From NCBI GenBank assembly GCA_031291715.1, contig JARLIN010000362.1:1-47240 (forward strand): DNA of 47,240 bases, read 5' to 3'. This stretch comes from Rhodopila sp. (GTDB lineage: Bacteria > Pseudomonadota > Alphaproteobacteria > Acetobacterales > Acetobacteraceae). The translations under genes and the position numbers were made by a program. How positions within the stretch are numbered: position 1 is the first letter of the stretch; each line of letters begins with the position of its first letter. Shown one piece after another: positions 5,293 to 18,847 of this stretch. The notes below the pieces were generated by a model. The model made no database searches. It saw nothing but the letters and a program-made list of their open reading frames with translations, and was not told where the DNA came from.

Positions 5293-8200
5293 CTATGCCG
5301 CAACGGCGGTGCCGCTGCACGAAGAGATCCAACGTTGACCGTCGAAGAACACTTCGACCCCGGTTCCTCCTCCCGCACCTTCGCCAGGCTTTCTTCCATT
5401 CGATGCGAACGCCTTCGCACCTGCAGTCATACCGGTGGGGAGTGTCGCGACGGCATAAGAGGGCAAGACCACGGGGCCGAGAAACCGCGGCGAAACGGCG
5501 TTCGTCCAAAAGACCTCGTGCCAAAACGAACCGCTGTCCGAAACAATATGATAGCGGTCATTGGCATGGAGGACGACTGTCCCGGACTCGATTCCGTCGC
5601 TGCCGCTGGGCACGATCCTAACTGTACACGTTCCGAGCACAGAGAACGTGTAACCTGTTCCGACGGCAACAGTGTTGGCCGGCGGCAAGGTGATTGAAAA
5701 GGATGACGTGCCAACAAGGAAGATGATGTGTCCCGAGGTGTAATTCGGCAGCGTCACGGAACTGGAATATACTTCTCCCCAACCAACTGAAATACCCTTT
5801 CCGACGGGGTAGGGCAGGGTGCCTTGGTTCCACCACAGCGTGTTTGTTGAGCTGTCATAAGCCAACCTGTTGCTGTTCGTGCTCTCGAATGCGATTGCCT
5901 GGCCGGCTGACATCTTGAGAACGGGTGCATTATTGATTTGCCGTGCATAACTCGTATCGATGATGGCGGTGGAAAAGGGGACGCCGACACCGAATACCGT
6001 CTTTGCACTACCGGATGACCCCGCGGCAAGGTACACGCCAATTATCGTGGACACCTCAACGGCTGGACCGGATGTATTGTGTTGGCCAATCACAATACTT
6101 TGGACTGTTCGGCTGTTGGCGTCGTCCAGGCCATTCCCAAACCAGTCCATCTCAACCGTGAGCGAGGCATTGGTCGCGCTCGACGGCCGGCCCGTTGTGT
6201 CACGGTATTCCAAGCAACCAGCCCAAAGTTGAGGCTGTGGCAGAAACTGCCCGTTGGAGCCAAGGGTGGTTGCCTGTCGAAGCGTCTGGATGTAGCGGCC
6301 AACATGTTGCGCGGCCGTCGCAGCTGTCGGGGTTTGCGTTCCGGCCCATATCAGGCGATCGAGGCCGCCCCAAACGTAATTGCCCGGACTGCTGTAGATA
6401 ATTGTGTCGGCACGGACGTTTGATATTACGGTGCCGGCTGAGCCACCACTATGGTTCACGATGTATGAAGACTGGGTGAGCGCGAAGTCGGTTGTCTGTG
6501 ATGCGCCCTGGGAGGTTGTGAGCCCGGAAGAAGTATTGCCCACGACAAATCCCGGTAAGACAAAGGCGACCGGTCCCCCTCCGGTTGGGATCGCCGCGGC
6601 AAGAGGCGTGCCGTCAGGCAATTGCGTCCCATCGACGACCCATTTAACCCGCTTGGTGAGCGCGATCCCCCATGTGCCAGGCTGTTGTAGGACCGTTGTG
6701 CCGTGAGGCACATAGATCACGGCTCCTGTCCCTGCTGCCTGATAGGCTGCTTTGAACGCGGCGGTATCATCTGTCACCCCATCCAGCTTCGCCCCATATG
6801 GCGGCATCGCAACATTTATGACTCCCGCCGAATTGGGATTCGCGTCGACATACGACTTGGTTGCCGCTTGCAATGGTGTCGTAGGCAAACCGGCAAGCGT
6901 GAGTGGACCGGTCAGCGTGCCGCCCGACTGAGATAATGCGGTTGCGACCTGCCCATCAACATATTGCTTCGTAGCCGCGTGTTGCGCGGTCGTCGGAACT
7001 GCGGCCAACGACAATAATCCCGTCAGCGATCCGCCCGTGATCGGTAGAGCCGTGCCGACTTGCGTGTCGACATATCGCTTTGTAGCGGCTTGTCCAGTAC
7101 TTGTTGGATCCGAGCTGAGAACAAGTGAACCGCTGAGGCTCCCACCGGTTCGGGGCAACGCGGTGAGCACCTGAGCATCAACATAATTCTTTGTCGCAGC
7201 CTGGGCGGACACAGTCGGATCAGACGCCAGGATCAAAGCCCCGCTGAGCGTGTCGCCACTCCGCGACACTCGGGTATCGGTATATTGCTTTGTGGCGGCC
7301 TGTGCCGGCACCACCGGATCGCCCGCCAACACAACGGGGCCGGTGAAGGTGGCGCCGGCTTTGGTGATCGCCGTCGCGAATTGATTGTCGATATATTGCT
7401 TGGTCGCCGCCTGCAGCGGAGCGGTTGGATCCGCCGCCAAATAAAGCGCGCCTGTCAGTGTGTCGCCAATGCGGGCGACGCGAAGATCGACATATTGCTT
7501 GGTGCTTGCCTGGAGCGGCACGGCAGGATCCGCCGCCAGGGCCAGGGCACCCGTCATCGATGCTCCGGATCGCGAGATAGAGCCCGCGACCTGGGAATCC
7601 ACATAATTCTTCGTCGCTGCCTGCCCGGCCAGAACAGGGTCGGCCGCCAGGATTAATGCACCGCTGAGGGTATCTCCGGTGCGCAGGACGCGTTGGTCGA
7701 CATACTGCTTTGTAGCGGCCTGCGCATTACTTGTCGGATCGGAAGCCAGAAAGAGGCCCCCTAGGAGCGTGCCGCCGGATTTCGGCAATGTCGCGGAGAC
7801 CTGTGTATCGACATAATTCTTTGTGGCCGCCTGCAGGGCCGACACAGGATCGGCAGCAAGGGCCAGAACACCAGACAAGGTATCGCCCGTCCGCGATACC
7901 TTGAGATCAGCATAGCGCTTCGTAGATGCGTGTAGAATGTTGGTCGGATCGGCGTTTAGGAGCAGAGATCCAGAAAGAGAGCCACCAACTATTGGTAGCA
8001 TGCTCGCGCCAATGGAGTCCGCATAGGCCTTCGTCGCGCTATCCAAAGGATGCTGCGGTGCAGCCGCCAGGGTTAGTACCCCCGACATAGACCCGCCGCT
8101 CAAAGGCAAAGCGGTGGATAGCTGCTGATCGACATAAGCCTTGTTCGTGGCTTGAGCTGAGGCCGTGGGAGTGCCGGATAGCGAAAGGCTTCCGGTCAGA

Positions 8201-8676
8201 GTGCCGCCTGACAATGGAAGCATGTTCGCGGTCAATTGCGACAGTGTTTGACCACTCGTCGCGCCCGTCGGCGTCACCAGACCTTGCGAAAGGTCGATAT
8301 TCGCCACTCCGGACATACCATTCATCAGTTGTCCGTAAGTCACCGCCACGTTCTTGCCGGCCTGAGATACGGGAATTAGGTCACCGCTCACTGGCACGGT
8401 CCCAGACGGCAAAGCTTGAACCACGAACGGCGTGGCAGTGGCAGATAGCGTGGAACCATTGAAGCTCAGGTTCTGGCCGACTGTGATAACTTGCGGCGTC
8501 CCAATTCCGGTGCCAGTCCCACCCAATAAGGTCCCCGCGGGTACTGTGAGCTGCGGTTGAACACCGTTCAAAACCTGAGTGCGTGTGATCTTGCGCGTGA
8601 TGCCGGCTTGGCTAACGATGAATTCGTCAGAATCAGATGCCGACGTCGCGGGGGCGAGCTGGTCAATTGTGGGCAT
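5293..8676 (-). CDS. Long tail fibre with 13 TKxYVD repeats and a pectate-lyase-like domain
   Basis: 1127 residues, the largest gene of the module. Residues 1-130 contain an adaptor-like domain that appears twice in degenerate form (MPTIDQLAPATSASDSDEF, then a second GDLIPVSQAGKNVAVTYGQL). Residues about 170-610 are 13 copies of a motif ending in TK-x-Y-V-D, spaced 33 or 37 residues apart, likely a trimeric fibre shaft. After it, GAKLDGVTDDTAAFKAAYQA is the classical start of the pectate-lyase-superfamily beta-helix found in many tail spikes. The C-terminus (ATLPTGMTAGAKAFASNGRK onward) resembles common tail-fibre tip segments. ATG at 8676, with GGAG about 10 bases upstream. Role inferred: receptor-binding fibre or spike. 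Confidence 0.85.
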   Translation of the reverse strand: MPTIDQLAPATSASDSDEFIVSQAGITRKITRTQVLNGVQPQLTVPAGTLLGGTGTGIGTPQVITVGQNLSFNGSTLSATATPFVVQALPSGTVPVSGDLIPVSQAGKNVAVTYGQLMNGMSGVANIDLSQGLVTPTGATSGQTLSQLTANMLPLSGGTLTGSLSLSGTPTASAQATNKAYVDQQLSTALPLSGGSMSGVLTLAAAPQHPLDSATKAYADSIGASMLPIVGGSLSGSLLLNADPTNILHASTKRYADLKVSRTGDTLSGVLALAADPVSALQAATKNYVDTQVSATLPKSGGTLLGGLFLASDPTSNAQAATKQYVDQRVLRTGDTLSGALILAADPVLAGQAATKNYVDSQVAGSISRSGASMTGALALAADPAVPLQASTKQYVDLRVARIGDTLTGALYLAADPTAPLQAATKQYIDNQFATAITKAGATFTGPVVLAGDPVVPAQAATKQYTDTRVSRSGDTLSGALILASDPTVSAQAATKNYVDAQVLTALPRTGGSLSGSLVLSSDPTSTGQAATKRYVDTQVGTALPITGGSLTGLLSLAAVPTTAQHAATKQYVDGQVATALSQSGGTLTGPLTLAGLPTTPLQAATKSYVDANPNSAGVINVAMPPYGAKLDGVTDDTAAFKAAYQAAGTGAVIYVPHGTTVLQQPGTWGIALTKRVKWVVDGTQLPDGTPLAAAIPTGGGPVAFVLPGFVVGNTSSGLTTSQGASQTTDFALTQSSYIVNHSGGSAGTVISNVRADTIIYSSPGNYVWGGLDRLIWAGTQTPTAATAAQHVGRYIQTLRQATTLGSNGQFLPQPQLWAGCLEYRDTTGRPSSATNASLTVEMDWFGNGLDDANSRTVQSIVIGQHNTSGPAVEVSTIIGVYLAAGSSGSAKTVFGVGVPFSTAIIDTSYARQINNAPVLKMSAGQAIAFESTNSNRLAYDSSTNTLWWNQGTLPYPVGKGISVGWGEVYSSSVTLPNYTSGHIIFLVGTSSFSITLPPANTVAVGTGYTFSVLGTCTVRIVPSGSDGIESGTVVLHANDRYHIVSDSGSFWHEVFWTNAVSPRFLGPVVLPSYAVATLPTGMTAGAKAFASNGRKPGEGAGGGTGVEVFFDGQRWISSCSGTAVAA
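6835..8165 (-). repeat. In-gene tandem repeats of the fibre shaft (13 units of about 99 or 111 bp)
   Basis: Within the long fibre gene the DNA repeats a diverged unit encoding DP-x(5)-QAATK-x-YVD followed by SGG or RTGDTLSG. Units of 33 residues (carrying R-x-GDTLSG) and 37 residues (carrying SGG or AGA) alternate strictly over seven consecutive copies in the middle, then the 37-residue type repeats three times near the C-terminal end of the shaft. Copies differ at many bases, so this is an old coding repeat under protein-level selection, not a simple sequence repeat. Confidence 0.85.
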
Positions 8677-14634: not shown

Positions 14635-15369
14635 TCAGTCCCCTGTAGAGCTTAGATTGATGCCGATCCGGCCTACATAGGCGGCGGCGCTGACTGCCGC
14701 GGCCAATGATCCGGCGCAGACCACTTTGGCGGCAAACGACTGGCTGTAGTTAGAGGCGCTGGCATCTGAATCCATCGGGGCAATTAGGGCCACAGACTGT
14801 TCTGATATCTGCCCATTGATTTCGGCCAGGGTGGCGCCTACCACGGCGACCGACTGCATCTGATCCGAAGTACCCGCTGTAAAAGCGTTATTGCTACGGA
14901 GCGAGGTCTGTAGCGAGGTGAGATCGACTGACGATCCCGACGCGGCAGACATCGCGTTACTTAGGTCAGCAGATACCAACGCTGCGATGGCAGAGCTTTG
15001 TGGCGCAGTGATGCCTGCCTGATTAACGACAATGCAGCTAACCCGATATGGTATCCACCACGGGCTGCGGTATTCTGCCAGGAAGCTCTTCACGACAACC
15101 CGGTGTCTGAAAGACACCCATGTCAGCCAAACGGTTTCTCCCGAGAGGCGAAGATTGTTGATGGCTCGCGCGCGTGCCTCGGCGTTCGGTCCTGAAAACG
15201 TCCCTTGGAAGCTGATTTCGCCGTCATCCGGACCGAGGCGCTCCACGACTCGTCTGCCGTTGGAAAGCTTGTGAACCGCCAGTCGATGACGGCCCCCAAA
15301 GCGGACCGAGGGCGGTATCTCGAAATCCTGGAGATTGATTGTACCGATCTGAATAGGAGAATCCCGCAC
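14635..15369 (-). CDS. Baseplate-associated tail protein (N/gp43-like position)
   Basis: 244 residues from a GTG at 15369. The N-terminal 120 residues are a beta-rich domain (LQDFEIPPSVRFGGRHRLAV, DDGEISFQGTFSGPNAEARA, WLTWVSFRHRVVVKSFLAEY) like that of proteins located between tape measure and hub, similar in layout to the N-terminal domain of DNA-circularisation/gpN proteins. The C-terminal half is rich in Ala and Ser and predicted helical. In Mu order this position is gp43. Function beyond a hub or adaptor role is not visible. Confidence 0.55.
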   Translation of the reverse strand: MRDSPIQIGTINLQDFEIPPSVRFGGRHRLAVHKLSNGRRVVERLGPDDGEISFQGTFSGPNAEARARAINNLRLSGETVWLTWVSFRHRVVVKSFLAEYRSPWWIPYRVSCIVVNQAGITAPQSSAIAALVSADLSNAMSAASGSSVDLTSLQTSLRSNNAFTAGTSDQMQSVAVVGATLAEINGQISEQSVALIAPMDSDASASNYSQSFAAKVVCAGSLAAAVSAAAYVGRIGINLSSTGD

Positions 15370-15412
15370 GGCTCAGGTCGCTTCCATGAATGGGTAGCAG
15401 GCTTCGGATAGC

Positions 15413-16291
15413 TTAGAAGGGGGAGACCCGGCCTCGGGGCAAAGTCGCTCTGGGATCGACCCCGGTCATACCGGTCGCCGGCTTTCCCAAAGCACGCTCC
15501 AAATGCTGGATGGCCCACCTTCCCAGCGCCGAACCGTCGATATGCAATGTCGAAATGCGTTGCCTATCTCGCTGCGAGCGATCATCGCCGTCGTAAGTAT
15601 CCCGCTCAAGCGAGGCCAACTGATAGAGGTCGGCCAAGCCCTCTCCGGCGGTAGCCCGTTCGCCATGTGGGGGTGATCCCATCCAATAAGCTGTGGCAGC
15701 AGTATCTTGGGCAGCAGGGCCCGGCGGGAGAGAAAATTCGGATTCAGTGACGCTTTGTCTGACCAGTACTGGACGATTTGTTACGACTGGCGGCGGTGCT
15801 CTCAAGCCCGCCTGGAAAACCTGGGCATCTCGGACTGTTCGCAGGTGTCGCTGGACCGCGACGGACATCTGATATGGTTTTCCTGCTGGCATCGCAGACA
15901 TTTGAAAAACGCGGTCGCGCCCTCTTGTACCTGCTGGAGCCGGCTCCACTTTCCACTGCGGGGCCCGACGACCTGGCTGGGAGGCCCGCAGTGATCCAGG
16001 CTGGAGAAACTTGATGGCGGCCGGGACGATAGAAGGGTGCATCATACCGTTCCGTGCCGGATAAGGCAGCGATGGAAGACGACTTGCATGCAGGGTCGTC
16101 CCCCACGCCTGGGGCAAGACGGGGGCTCTGCCGAGGCCACCATCGAGATAATCGGCAACAGGTCTGCGTGCGCGCAACGGGATGGCTGGCGGCGCCGTAA
16201 AATGTCTTGGAAATTGCAGGATCCGTTGAAGGGCGAGGAACCAGGGGATCCGTCTGGAATTCACCATGGCGTGGCTACCGTCCAACAACAT
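15413..16291 (-). CDS. Short protein in the tape-measure position
   Basis: 292 residues, ATG at 16291 with GAGG five bases upstream, 30 bases after the stop of the frameshifted chaperone. In contractile phages the tape measure is encoded here and is normally 600-1000 or more residues of helical sequence with hydrophobic segments. This protein is instead rich in Pro, Arg and Ala (TAPPAIPLRARRPVADYLDG, GRRAPQWKVEPAPAGTRGRD) with only a short helical part near the C-terminus (DGSALGRWAIQHLERALGKP). It may be a very short or degenerate tape measure, or a minor tail protein left after loss of the true one. Confidence 0.5.
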   Translation of the reverse strand: MLLDGSHAMVNSRRIPWFLALQRILQFPRHFTAPPAIPLRARRPVADYLDGGLGRAPVLPQAWGTTLHASRLPSLPYPARNGMMHPSIVPAAIKFLQPGSLRASQPGRRAPQWKVEPAPAGTRGRDRVFQMSAMPAGKPYQMSVAVQRHLRTVRDAQVFQAGLRAPPPVVTNRPVLVRQSVTESEFSLPPGPAAQDTAATAYWMGSPPHGERATAGEGLADLYQLASLERDTYDGDDRSQRDRQRISTLHIDGSALGRWAIQHLERALGKPATGMTGVDPRATLPRGRVSPF

Positions 16292-16321
16292 GCCATCCTC
16301 GGGGCAGGGACGTCCTGAACA

Positions 16322-16845
16322 CTATCGCGCACTGCCAGAAGGTCTTGCCCAGTCGAACACAGACCAGTCAAAGAGGTGCCCTTCCAAGGTGCCAAGGGCG
16401 ATGACATAGGCCGACCTCTCGATGGTCGACAGCGAAAATGCAACGTCGAATGGCACCCCGTTCCGAACAAGATAGAGGCAATCGATCAGGACGGGGTGCC
16501 GGGCGAGTTTCCCAGATGTGGCTTGGGATCGGGGGTGTCGTGCTCGTCCTTGAACGTATCAGCGATTGCCGCCAACCCTTCGTCCCCAAGCCGATCAATC
16601 AAGCTCTCGATTTGGGGCTCGGTCGCGGGTGAGGGGACGGGAACGCCATCTATCTCTAACACAGAGAATGCCAGGCCGGCCATGGATAGCCAGGGTTCGT
16701 TTTGGGCCAGGACCGGACCGGCGGCTTTGAAGAGCCTGAGTGTGTCAAGCGCCGTCAGCCGCCGCAGTGAGAGTCGCCGCCCCTTCGCGTCAATTGCGGT
16801 ATAGGATTTTGCGGCTTCCTGTACGATAGATTGCGAGGGCGTCAT
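16322..16845 (-). CDS. Tail assembly chaperone GT fusion made by -1 frameshift
   Basis: The first 113 codons are shared with the chaperone gene. At the slippery site 16507-16513 a -1 shift would move translation into a frame that is open for 61 further codons and ends with TAG at 16324-16322, giving about 174 residues. The extension has no start codon or ribosome site of its own but reads as good protein: LYLVRNGVPFDVAFSLSTIE and IALGTLEGHLFDWSVFDW. These resemble the T part of other phage tail chaperones, with the usual helix and a final Trp-rich stretch. In lambda the G and GT products bind tube protein and tape measure respectively. The frame arithmetic and the downstream stem support real frameshifting. 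Confidence 0.8.
16452..16513 (-). promoter_or_regulatory. Programmed -1 ribosomal frameshift signal
   Basis: Read on the minus strand, the heptamer G GGA AAC (16513-16507) sits in the zero frame as X XXY YYZ. It is followed by a 6-base spacer and a stem whose arms are GGCACCCCGT (16500-16491) and ACGGGGTGCC (16461-16452), ten perfect pairs around a 29-base loop. Two more C-G pairs form past a single A bulge. The zero-frame stop TGA (16488-16486) lies inside the loop. The layout matches that of known -1 frameshift signals; lambda uses GGGAAAG at the equivalent place. Confidence 0.85.
16486..16845 (-). CDS. Tail assembly chaperone (G-like, zero-frame product)
   Basis: 119 residues. The ATG at 16845 shares one base with the stop of the tube gene. 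The sequence starts with a small region including IDAKGRRLSLRRLTALDTLR, then helices around AGPVLAQNEPWLSMAGLAFS and ATEPQIESLIDRLGDEGLAA, the all-helical profile of Mu gp41-type tail chaperones. Such proteins coat the tape measure before tube polymerisation. The last 6 residues (SPGTPS) follow the slippery codons and differ from the frameshifted product. Position between tube and tape-measure genes is diagnostic. Confidence 0.8.
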   Translation of the reverse strand: MTPSQSIVQEAAKSYTAIDAKGRRLSLRRLTALDTLRLFKAAGPVLAQNEPWLSMAGLAFSVLEIDGVPVPSPATEPQIESLIDRLGDEGLAAIADTFKDEHDTPDPKPHLGNSPGTPS

Positions 16846-17273
16846 CAGATGCGCCGCTTTCTCGTTGCGAAGAATTCCAGCTTCTGCTTCACACTGGAGT
16901 CGCCCTTCCAGGTGCCAGCACTGGCGAGCTTGAACACCACCCCGTCAAACTGATACGTCGAAACCGAACTATCGGTCTCGGTGATATATTGGTACATCGT
17001 GCCGGGCTGGGTGCCGGCGCCGTTATAAAAATCCTGCTCAATCGACGAGATAAAGTCATCGAGCCCGGACGTGCCTCGTTCTACTTCGAAACTTCCTTCC
17101 CAGCCTTTTGGAAGTTCCGCGCCAAGCTGCGTTCCATCAAGCCGGCTGATACGTACCGGACTTGTAAGCTGCCGGCTCTCGAAGCCTGTAACATGGCTGA
17201 TGTCGACGCGCCCGTTTGGACCCATCACGACAAGCTGGGTGTCCCGGCCGATTGAGAATGTTGTTAGTCCCAC
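16845..17273 (-). CDS. Tail tube protein
   Basis: 142 residues from a GTG at 17273 with AGGAG eight bases upstream; an ATG in that spacer is out of frame. The pattern SHVTGFESRQLTSPVRISRL, GWEGSFEVERGTSGLDDFIS, and the final strand VKQKLEFFATRKRRI agree with the tube (M/FII-like) proteins of contractile phages, which stack as hexamers inside the sheath. It directly follows the sheath gene, as in P2 and Mu. Confidence 0.85.
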   Translation of the reverse strand: MGLTTFSIGRDTQLVVMGPNGRVDISHVTGFESRQLTSPVRISRLDGTQLGAELPKGWEGSFEVERGTSGLDDFISSIEQDFYNGAGTQPGTMYQYITETDSSVSTYQFDGVVFKLASAGTWKGDSSVKQKLEFFATRKRRI

Positions 17274-17284
17274 TGCGTCATCTC

Positions 17285-18847
17285 CTAGTTAACCTGGCCC
17301 GTGGGTAGCGTCTGCCGAGATACCTGGACCGTCTGGCCTCCCTCGACGTTCACGATGAATCGCTCGTTAATCGCCTGGTACTGGACCTGGGCGTCTGATT
17401 GGACGTAGCCCAGACCGGTGCGGGAAGGCGGGTTATTCGAGGTATCACAGATGACGCTGAAAGGTAGAGAGCCCGTTGAGCTGCCGAGCAGGCCCTGTGC
17501 GAGCATATTGTTCAAGAATGACAGCTGGGTTGATCTGATCCTACGGAACAGGTCGTTGTTGATGACCTGCCCTACATATTGACCCATACCCGCGGCTAGC
17601 GTCTCGGCGATATAATTCGTCAACCGGGTATAGTTGTCTCCGTCCGTGGCCGCATTCGACGAGGTGTTATGACCGCCTCGCACGCCCCAAAACGAGCCCG
17701 CCGGCTGAGGATTACAGATCACATCAATGCCCGCACCCAGCAGCGCGCCCAAATCAGCGGTTGAATAGGCGGTATTTTGGCCGGAACCGGGGGTGCCGGT
17801 CCGCTGGCTCCCGATTATGCCGTATATCTGCTTATTGAGGCTGGATTGTTCGGGTGAGAGGTTGGCCAGGCGGCCTGCCGCGAAGCCCTGGGGTGACACA
17901 AGGCGGACGGTGTTGTTCGCTTGGTCGGCCCACCACAGCCAATCACCAAACATGAGCTTCGCCGAGTAACTATCCAGTCCCGCCGCGGCCTTTGTGGAGA
18001 CGGCATTCGTGATCGTATCGCCGGCCGGGGTTGTGAGGACCATATAAATGCCCTCCTGCAGCCCAAAGCCCGCCTGCGTGGTCCATGTCGTCGCGTCGTC
18101 GCAGTCGGCGAGCATCCCGAGACCGCAGCCCTGGCCCCGCAAAGCATACATCCCATCGCGGGTCGGTGCGTCGGCGCCAATCAACTGGGCGCTGCCAACC
18201 AACGACGCTCCATCCGCCCCAGCGGCGGACGATCCCAAGGTAAGGGAGAAGGACGCTGGGGACGCCGTAGTGCCGCCTGGGCTAGCGACGATAAGAAGAG
18301 ATGGACCGCGCTGTGGCCCCATGCCAGCATTAACCGCGGCGGCTAAGCCGTTCCAAAACGCCGCGCCATTGCCGGCCAGTCCATCATAGACCTCGGGCTC
18401 GAACCCGGGCAGCAGGACCGACAACTTCCATGTATTGGGCTTCGATCCCGACCCGAGCGTGAGGGTAATGTTATTGCCCAACGACCCGGTGTACATCGCC
18501 GTGAAGCTCGCGTTTGAGCCCGGGACCACGGTGTATGCGGCGGCGTCCGTGCCATCGGTCACGCGTACGCAGCGGAAATTCTGGGCACCCTGCTGAACAG
18601 CAGTCGCGACCTGGGTTCCGAGATCGTACTTGCGGGGGACGATCGAGCCAAATAGCTGAGCATAATCAGCCATCGATCCAATGATCGTCGGTTCGTTGAC
18701 GGGGCCCCATGAGGCAGTGCCCACCACGCCGACGACGTTCGTGGGGACCCCGTTCAGGACCAGATTTTGTGGTGGAACGATCTGCACATACAGATCGGGC
18801 ACGATCAGCGAGGTTGTGTTGACGCTGCCTTGCTGTGCGATTGGCAC
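17285..18847 (-). CDS. Contractile tail sheath protein
   Basis: 520 residues from a GTG at 18847 with AAAGG upstream. The protein has sheath-family features: an N-terminal segment for intersubunit linking, VVGVVGTASWGPVNEPTIIG followed by YAQLFGS near residues 40-70, a variable surface domain, and a conserved C-terminal region with DVICNPQPAGSFWGVRGGHN, ATDGDNYTRLTNYIAETLAA, DTSNNPPSRTGLGYVQSDAQ and the final AINERFIVNVEGG strand. Length is close to P2 FI and Mu L (396-495). It shows that the particle has a contractile (myovirus-type) tail. No truncation seen. Confidence 0.95.
   Translation of the reverse strand: MPIAQQGSVNTTSLIVPDLYVQIVPPQNLVLNGVPTNVVGVVGTASWGPVNEPTIIGSMADYAQLFGSIVPRKYDLGTQVATAVQQGAQNFRCVRVTDGTDAAAYTVVPGSNASFTAMYTGSLGNNITLTLGSGSKPNTWKLSVLLPGFEPEVYDGLAGNGAAFWNGLAAAVNAGMGPQRGPSLLIVASPGGTTASPASFSLTLGSSAAGADGASLVGSAQLIGADAPTRDGMYALRGQGCGLGMLADCDDATTWTTQAGFGLQEGIYMVLTTPAGDTITNAVSTKAAAGLDSYSAKLMFGDWLWWADQANNTVRLVSPQGFAAGRLANLSPEQSSLNKQIYGIIGSQRTGTPGSGQNTAYSTADLGALLGAGIDVICNPQPAGSFWGVRGGHNTSSNAATDGDNYTRLTNYIAETLAAGMGQYVGQVINNDLFRRIRSTQLSFLNNMLAQGLLGSSTGSLPFSVICDTSNNPPSRTGLGYVQSDAQVQYQAINERFIVNVEGGQTVQVSRQTLPTGQVN

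Follow-up and report, generated by a model that had tools for sequence, protein, structure and literature searches.

A putative programmed -1 ribosomal frameshift in the tail assembly chaperone gene of a phage family of Acetobacteraceae

The analyses described here indicate that a stretch of 47,240 nucleotides from Rhodopila sp. (contig JARLIN010000362.1, hereafter the window) almost certainly contains a programmed -1 ribosomal frameshift by which a tail assembly chaperone would be made in two forms. This reading, which the first-pass annotation had proposed, is supported by a conserved signal, a covarying stem, constraint at the level of the RNA, and the lack of a separate start, and from these features, which are read directly in the sequences, we infer the slippage itself and its efficiency. 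The kind is already known from G and GT of phage lambda; what is new is an unannotated family in Acetobacteraceae phages with a covarying 3' stem and, as the sequences suggest, lineages in which the hairpin appears to have been swapped, the slip site moved, or frameshifting perhaps given up, with both protein domains retained.

According to the proposed mechanism, most ribosomes would stay in frame on GGA AAC and terminate at TGA, resulting in the 119-aa short form. The hairpin formed by GGCACCCCGT and ACGGGGTGCC, 6 nt downstream, would hold the ribosome with tRNA-Gly on GGA and tRNA-Asn on AAC, and in a minority of cases a tandem slip one base back would move tRNA-Gly to GGG and tRNA-Asn to AAA. 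The slipped ribosomes would then translate 61 further codons, and the resulting long form of 174 aa would end in a small C-terminal domain of three helices. If lambda G/GT is taken as the model, coating of the tape measure protein would fall to the part that both forms share, and recruitment of tube subunits to the extension.

Features of the predicted frameshift element and of neighbouring tail genes in the window
Feature	Position	Strand	Remarks
Tail sheath protein	17285..18847	-	PHROG 23 tail sheath, E 4.5e-51
Probable tail tube protein, 142 aa	16845..17273	-	PHROG 12993 (function unknown); from position after sheath only
Short product, putative tail assembly chaperone (G-like)	16486..16845	-	zero frame, 119 aa; putative identity
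Slippery heptamer G_GGA_AAC (GGGAAAC)	16507..16513	-	zero-frame phase X_XXY_YYZ; position kept in 308/319 distinct loci
Spacer TCGCCC	16501..16506	-	6 nt
Putative stimulatory stem, 5' arm GGCACCCCGT	16491..16500	-	
Putative stimulatory stem, 3' arm ACGGGGTGCC	16452..16461	-	
Zero-frame stop TGA	16486..16488	-	within stem loop
-1 frame extension (T-like domain)	16322..16507	-	61 codons + TAG
292-aa ORF in tape-measure position	15413..16291	-	unusually short, no family match
Mu N-position protein (DNA circularisation/hub)	14635..15369	-	PHROG 21362 (function unknown); position as Mu N

The candidate signal in the window

The 119-aa ORF (16845-16486) ends with ...CAT CTG GGA AAC TCG CCC GGC ACC CCG TCC TGA, and the phase of the heptamer, the 6-base spacer, the 10-bp stem and the stop within its loop were all found at the minus-strand bases at which the first-pass annotation had placed them. 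The translation likewise agrees that the -1 frame stays open for 61 codons to the TAG ending at 16322, and the predicted long product is therefore 113 + 61 = 174 aa. The arms GGCACCCCGT and ACGGGGTGCC are perfectly complementary over 10 bp and enclose a loop of 29 nt. The element folds with a minimum free energy (MFE) of -30.9 kcal/mol (z = -2.96), and one of 200 dinucleotide shuffles was as stable. When the whole window was scanned on both strands and in any phase, a perfect 10-bp stem at 5-9 nt was found for one of the 80 X3Y3Z heptamers (Y = A or T), namely the GGGAAAC at 16513-16507, while the chance expectation for a heptamer with such a stem was 0.017 per window (mean of 60 Markov resamples). 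An Rfam scan of 15400-17300 resulted in one match, which was below threshold. An upstream Shine-Dalgarno (SD) stimulator was not seen in the ~35 nt 5' of the window heptamer; among the relatives described below, SD-like words 7-17 nt 5' of the heptamer are present in 77 of the 219 loci with GGGAAAC against a local background of 14%, a modest enrichment that is uncorrected for kinship.

Conservation among relatives and the exceptional loci

Two sets of relatives were compared with the window. With the chaperone as the query, 53 viral loci and 77 of 200 genomes of the order, its own genome included, were matched, and the first set consisted of 83 loci, namely the 53 viral loci and 30 loci fetched from genomes of the order, the window itself (L062) among the 30. 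The heptamer was kept in phase in 80 of these 83 loci (79 with complete sequence and the truncated L039). For the wider search, an alignment of 45 extensions as well as single divergent extensions served as queries, and the profile scan resulted in at least 319 distinct loci, the window included, which were defined by exact 220-nt windows and are not independent because close relatives remain among them. An X_XXY_YYZ heptamer was located exactly 6 nt before the extension domain in 308 of the 319 loci, and its type was GGGAAAC in 219, AAAAAAC in 61, AAAAAAG in 15, AAAAAAA in 12, and AAAAAAT in 1. An alignment of related prophages, suggested earlier as a check, thus revealed everything that had been looked for in it: a conserved heptamer, a conserved spacer, and compensatory changes in the stem. 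Of 395 genomes of the order, 163 contained the extension, that of the window included; in a class-wide sample of 385 genomes, it was found in two, the window's own and one with the same family code. The closest named matches were Rhodopila (Acetobacteraceae) assemblies. A search of phage records at E 0.01 detected no record with the extension, and the only phage records that matched the chaperone at E 0.01 were phiKX1 and phiKX2. One contig (IMGVR_UViG_2883785368_000001) contains two chaperone-extension loci, L309 and L313, ~4.2 kb apart, whose slip sites are AAAAAAC and AAAAAAT and which have the alternative stem GGACGTTG/CAACGTCC in common.

The earliest start-type codon of the open -1 frame in the window is a GTG inside NGVPF, 57 nt past the first base of the heptamer, and, judging from this position, translation from it would begin too late to make the extension domain. 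Among the 308 loci with a heptamer, a start-type codon in the extension frame (from 75 nt upstream to 12 nt inside the domain) was present in 13, and an SD-like word before such a start was present in 0 of 308. This agrees with the earlier claim that the extension has no start of its own. An overlapping -1 ORF that lacks its own initiation site and is conserved as protein, by which the lambda-type G/GT arrangement is recognized, is therefore what was found here.

The 11 of 319 loci without a heptamer at -6 nt were each inspected individually. In L465 and L534, GGGAAAC is displaced upstream, with an inserted stretch before the extension domain, and the local, G+C-rich hairpin 3' of the heptamer is a different one (folding energies of -36.7 and -30.6 kcal/mol, respectively); the stimulator seems to have been replaced in these two loci. 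L497 has AAAAAAA beside a frame-jumping chaperone ORF with apparent indels, L460 has CCCTTTG 15 nt earlier, and L494 has AAAGAAG followed by a stop. In L324, L448, and L306, GGGGGAA is followed by a stop, so that the zero frame ends with GGG GAA TAG and contains no X_XXY_YYZ heptamer, and in L324, AAGGAGG is present 13 nt upstream and the stem is an alternative one; a -1 shift in these three loci is possibly assisted by the G-run or by the stop.

The remaining three loci, L060 (=L284), L061 (=L490), and L090, have no slip site. The extension of L061 starts in an ATGA overlap, that of L090 starts with an ATG preceded by GGAG, and in L060 an in-frame TAG is followed one codon later by an ATG, where no SD was seen and read-through of the stop would fit equally well. 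Reassignment of the amber codon in L060 was considered and rejected, as reading through TAG lengthened some ORFs with no clear case. Relatives in which the extension has its own ATG had been named beforehand as an argument against frameshifting. Such relatives do exist (3 of 319), but all three are without the heptamer, and because of this they look like lineages that have replaced frameshifting rather than evidence against frameshifting elsewhere. According to the paper describing PRFect (PMC10885494), some phages do without frameshifting and have two genes, a short one and a fused one. The apparent own-start architecture of L061 and L090, and perhaps of L060, is what speaks for the possibility that the extension is in general a separate gene with its own start and that the heptamer is incidental. 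However, with start-type codons in 13 of the 308 heptamer loci, none of them preceded by an SD-like word, and with the first such codon of the window located inside the domain, we consider this possibility very unlikely.

The stem as an RNA element

The RHP and GVP motifs are both conserved in the extension, and the stem could accordingly reflect conservation of RHP...GVP in the protein instead of a frameshift stimulator. However, synonymous sites are frozen in the codons of the stem and free in comparison codons. The 3' arm of the GGGAAAC loci is past the stop of the zero frame, and its Gly codon is GGG in 218 of 219 loci and its Val codon GTG in 219 of 219; the stem codon CAC is found in 214 of 219. 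In contrast, the comparison codons vary, GGG being used for Gly-39 in 41 and GTG for Val-22 in 64 of the 219 loci. A mismatch in the stem, due to CCA (13) or CCG (7) as the Pro codon of the 5' arm, is present in 20 of the 219. When, among the helices that begin 4-9 nt 3' of the heptamer, the best one was compared with those of synonymous recodings, it was better at p<=0.05 in 215 of 219 loci with GGGAAAC, 37 of 61 with AAAAAAC, 4 of 12 with AAAAAAA, and 1 of 15 with AAAAAAG. In an MFE version of this test, performed on an earlier set from which 45 of 200 GGGAAAC elements were sampled, the element was better than its recodings in 98% of the 45 GGGAAAC, 76% of 41 AAAAAAC, 40% of 5 AAAAAAA, and 31% of 13 AAAAAAG elements. 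Some AAAAAAG loci do fold, for instance L391, which folds strongly in a shifted register.

Covariation was analyzed with 97 candidate rows from the earlier set. These comprised each of the 66 elements that are not GGGAAAC, together with 31 of the 184 that are. Five rows were dropped: L175, whose stem is in a shifted register, and L284, L319, L090, and L329, which lack a heptamer at -6. The 92 gap-free aligned elements had a covariation score of 0.196 versus 0.091 +/- 0.008 in shuffles, none of 500 of which scored as high, although such shuffles ignore relatedness and close relatives inflate scores of this type. All six slid registers scored lower. Cells with changes on both sides numbered 53 versus 18.1 in the shuffles, while the number of stem pairs changed on both sides, 6, was not beyond the shuffles (73 of 500 were as high). 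Replacement of both arms together was observed as GGAACCCCG/CGGGGTTCC in L365, L397, and L398, as GGACGTTG/CAACGTCC in L309 and L313, and, with one mismatch, as GGGACGCC/GGGGTCCC in L393. RNAalifold predicted no pairs for a mixed alignment of the same elements, perhaps because many of the AAAAAAG rows have no stem in this register. The frozen synonymous sites, the helix test, and the covariation, three tests of the sequences, all say yes to the stem being an element at the RNA level. Since the arms change together in other lineages, and, among the loci without a slip site, L060 and L061 have lost the stem (3 and 5 of 10 pairs, respectively) and L090 retains a remnant of it (7 of 10), protein conservation as the sole reason for the stem is very improbable.

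The loss of the stem with AAAAAAG is strong in the raw counts of the helix test (1/15 vs 215/219). In the tree, the contrasts between heptamer and stem loss numbered 3 that were supported and independent and 7 on all branches, and, because only three are supported, we offer it as a hypothesis that stem loss goes with AAAAAAG. The eleven exception rows were kept in the tree, where the upstream part of three of them (L490, L497, and L534) was read in the wrong frame, and were excluded from the contrasts.

The frame change could also take place during transcription, if stuttering of RNA polymerase made the long form. The A6-A7 runs in 89 of the 308 loci could in principle promote this; however, the site in the window and in 218 other loci is GGGAAAC, which has no run longer than 3, and both the stem at a fixed distance of 6 nt and the heptamer in the ribosomal phase fit a ribosome, so that transcriptional slippage is extremely unlikely. 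Lastly, a sequencing error or decay of a gene that is a single ORF when intact has nothing specific in its favor apart from the apparent indels in the chaperone ORF of L497, and its probability is negligible, given that 308 of the 319 distinct loci share the exact base of the frame change, always at the heptamer, in named assemblies, other genomes, and viral contigs alike. An independent start, a stem due to protein only, transcriptional slippage, and sequencing error were thus all rejected in favor of the -1 ribosomal frameshift.

Chaperone identity, known systems and implications

The 119-aa ORF matched PHROG 20383, a family of unknown function, with an E of 3.7e-19. When an AlphaFold model of its N-domain (residues 1-113, pLDDT 84.3) was compared with the PDB, the HK97 tail assembly chaperone 2OB9 was at ranks 1-2 among the best 50 of 295 matches with E<=10, with an E of 0.13-0.16 that is not significant alone. 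In BFVD, the best match of the N-domain was a phage protein without a name (E 7e-7); tail assembly chaperones were at ranks 5 and 17 (E 0.003 and 0.03), and ranks 4 and 11 were taken by baseplate-hub proteins. From the gene order and the top-ranked, weak structural match to HK97 we infer that the product probably has the role of a tail chaperone. Comparison by hhalign gave no sequence homology to lambda G or lambda T (probabilities of 0.8% and 0.2%, respectively), and profile comparison with Mu gp41 gave a probability of 12% and no clear homology. The Pfam family Gp41_Mu was matched by 1 of 65 family members (E 0.042); nine other families gave comparably weak matches, and the best of all ten was the unrelated Hydant_A_N (3 members, E 0.0088).

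For the extension, the 45 members had no Pfam match with E<0.05 and no PHROG match at E 0.01, and its profile matched nothing in the PDB better than E 0.26. The model of the extension is a confidently predicted three-helix unit (pLDDT 89.7), for which there was no structural match at E 0.001; its best match in BFVD was an uncharacterised phage protein of 49 aa (E 0.17, TM 0.67/0.82). Komagataeibacter phage phiKX1 (LC644975; L092, 15869-16410) has an AAAAAAC element with 10 of 10 stem pairs, and its record contains PhiKX1_580 and PhiKX1_590 (59 aa, hypothetical), the latter starting at an ATG inside the extension. Therefore, with the extension annotated as a separate, truncated gene, the predicted frameshift was missed in this record. 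Because the extension has no Pfam or PHROG match and is mis-called in phiKX1, the long form would easily be missed by annotation.

The order of genes in the window is sheath, tube-position gene, 119-aa ORF, -1 extension, 292-aa ORF, hub-position gene, and baseplate genes including baseplate J. In phiKX1, a 742-aa ORF is located two genes downstream. Among 307 loci with enough downstream DNA, 194 had a recognisable hub-like gene, and in 9 of these 194 (L083, L084, L086, L087, L202, L123, L137, L139, and L167) this gene follows within 150 nt of the extension with no tape-measure ORF between them; a gene map of one region without a tape-measure ORF was that of L539. Elsewhere in the window, 5293-8676 encodes a 1127-aa tail fibre, assigned to tail fibre families by PHROG, in which many similar repeats of ~40 residues were recognized by eye.

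The window family resembles lambda G/GT in the predicted -1 shift on GGGAAA-Z near the end of the first ORF, in an extension that comes from the -1 frame, and probably in its position before the tape-measure slot. The slip site of lambda is reported to be G_GGA_AAG (PMC7618472), and the G/GT kind is reported to be conserved despite low sequence similarity (PMC5009743). In contrast to lambda, the Z base of the window heptamer is C instead of G, there is no sequence similarity to lambda G/T, a conserved covarying stem is located 6 nt downstream, and the module is that of a contractile tail. The contractile-tail order of tube, chaperone, tape measure, N, and P is, by position, shared with Mu and its gp41, whereas the shift in the corresponding gene of Mu is -2 and is noted as verified in the Mu record. 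HK97 2OB9 is alike as the top match of the predicted fold, but a TM of 0.41-0.47 and an identity of 15% make this likeness only suggestive. For chaperone genes that precede the tape measure in Caulobacter phages, slip sites of AAAAAAC in phiCbK and GGGAAAC in Colossus have been described (PMC3556154). These are the two commonest in the window family, and the likeness is by slip site alone; phiCbK is a siphophage, and the excerpted text of that paper mentions no stem for either phage. In the open-licence literature, we found neither the window family nor any tail-chaperone frameshift with a covarying stem described.

It is conceivable, although we hold it to be rather doubtful, that it is the dosage of the long form that selection keeps constant and that the means of reaching it, whether heptamer, stem, slip site, or a separate T-like protein, are interchangeable. 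If so, lineages with weaker heptamers might keep the stem, and lineages with AAAAAAG, the shiftiest heptamer in bacteria, might mostly lose it, an interpretation that we put forward only tentatively. The other lineages might, with the same reservation, have arrived at this dose by replacing the hairpin, by moving or replacing the slip site (GGGGGAA-stop, CCCTTTG), or by abandoning frameshifting. If this is true, the separate T-like protein would mean that covalent fusion of G and T is not always needed. For the relatives without a visible tape-measure ORF, it may be asked to what the chaperone would bind. The family of 319 distinct loci, in which there are several types of heptamer, hairpins that have been rebuilt, and three loci that appear to be split, is a natural experiment, in which it may be asked how the strength of the heptamer is traded against the stimulator, and whether two separate proteins can take the place of a fused chaperone.
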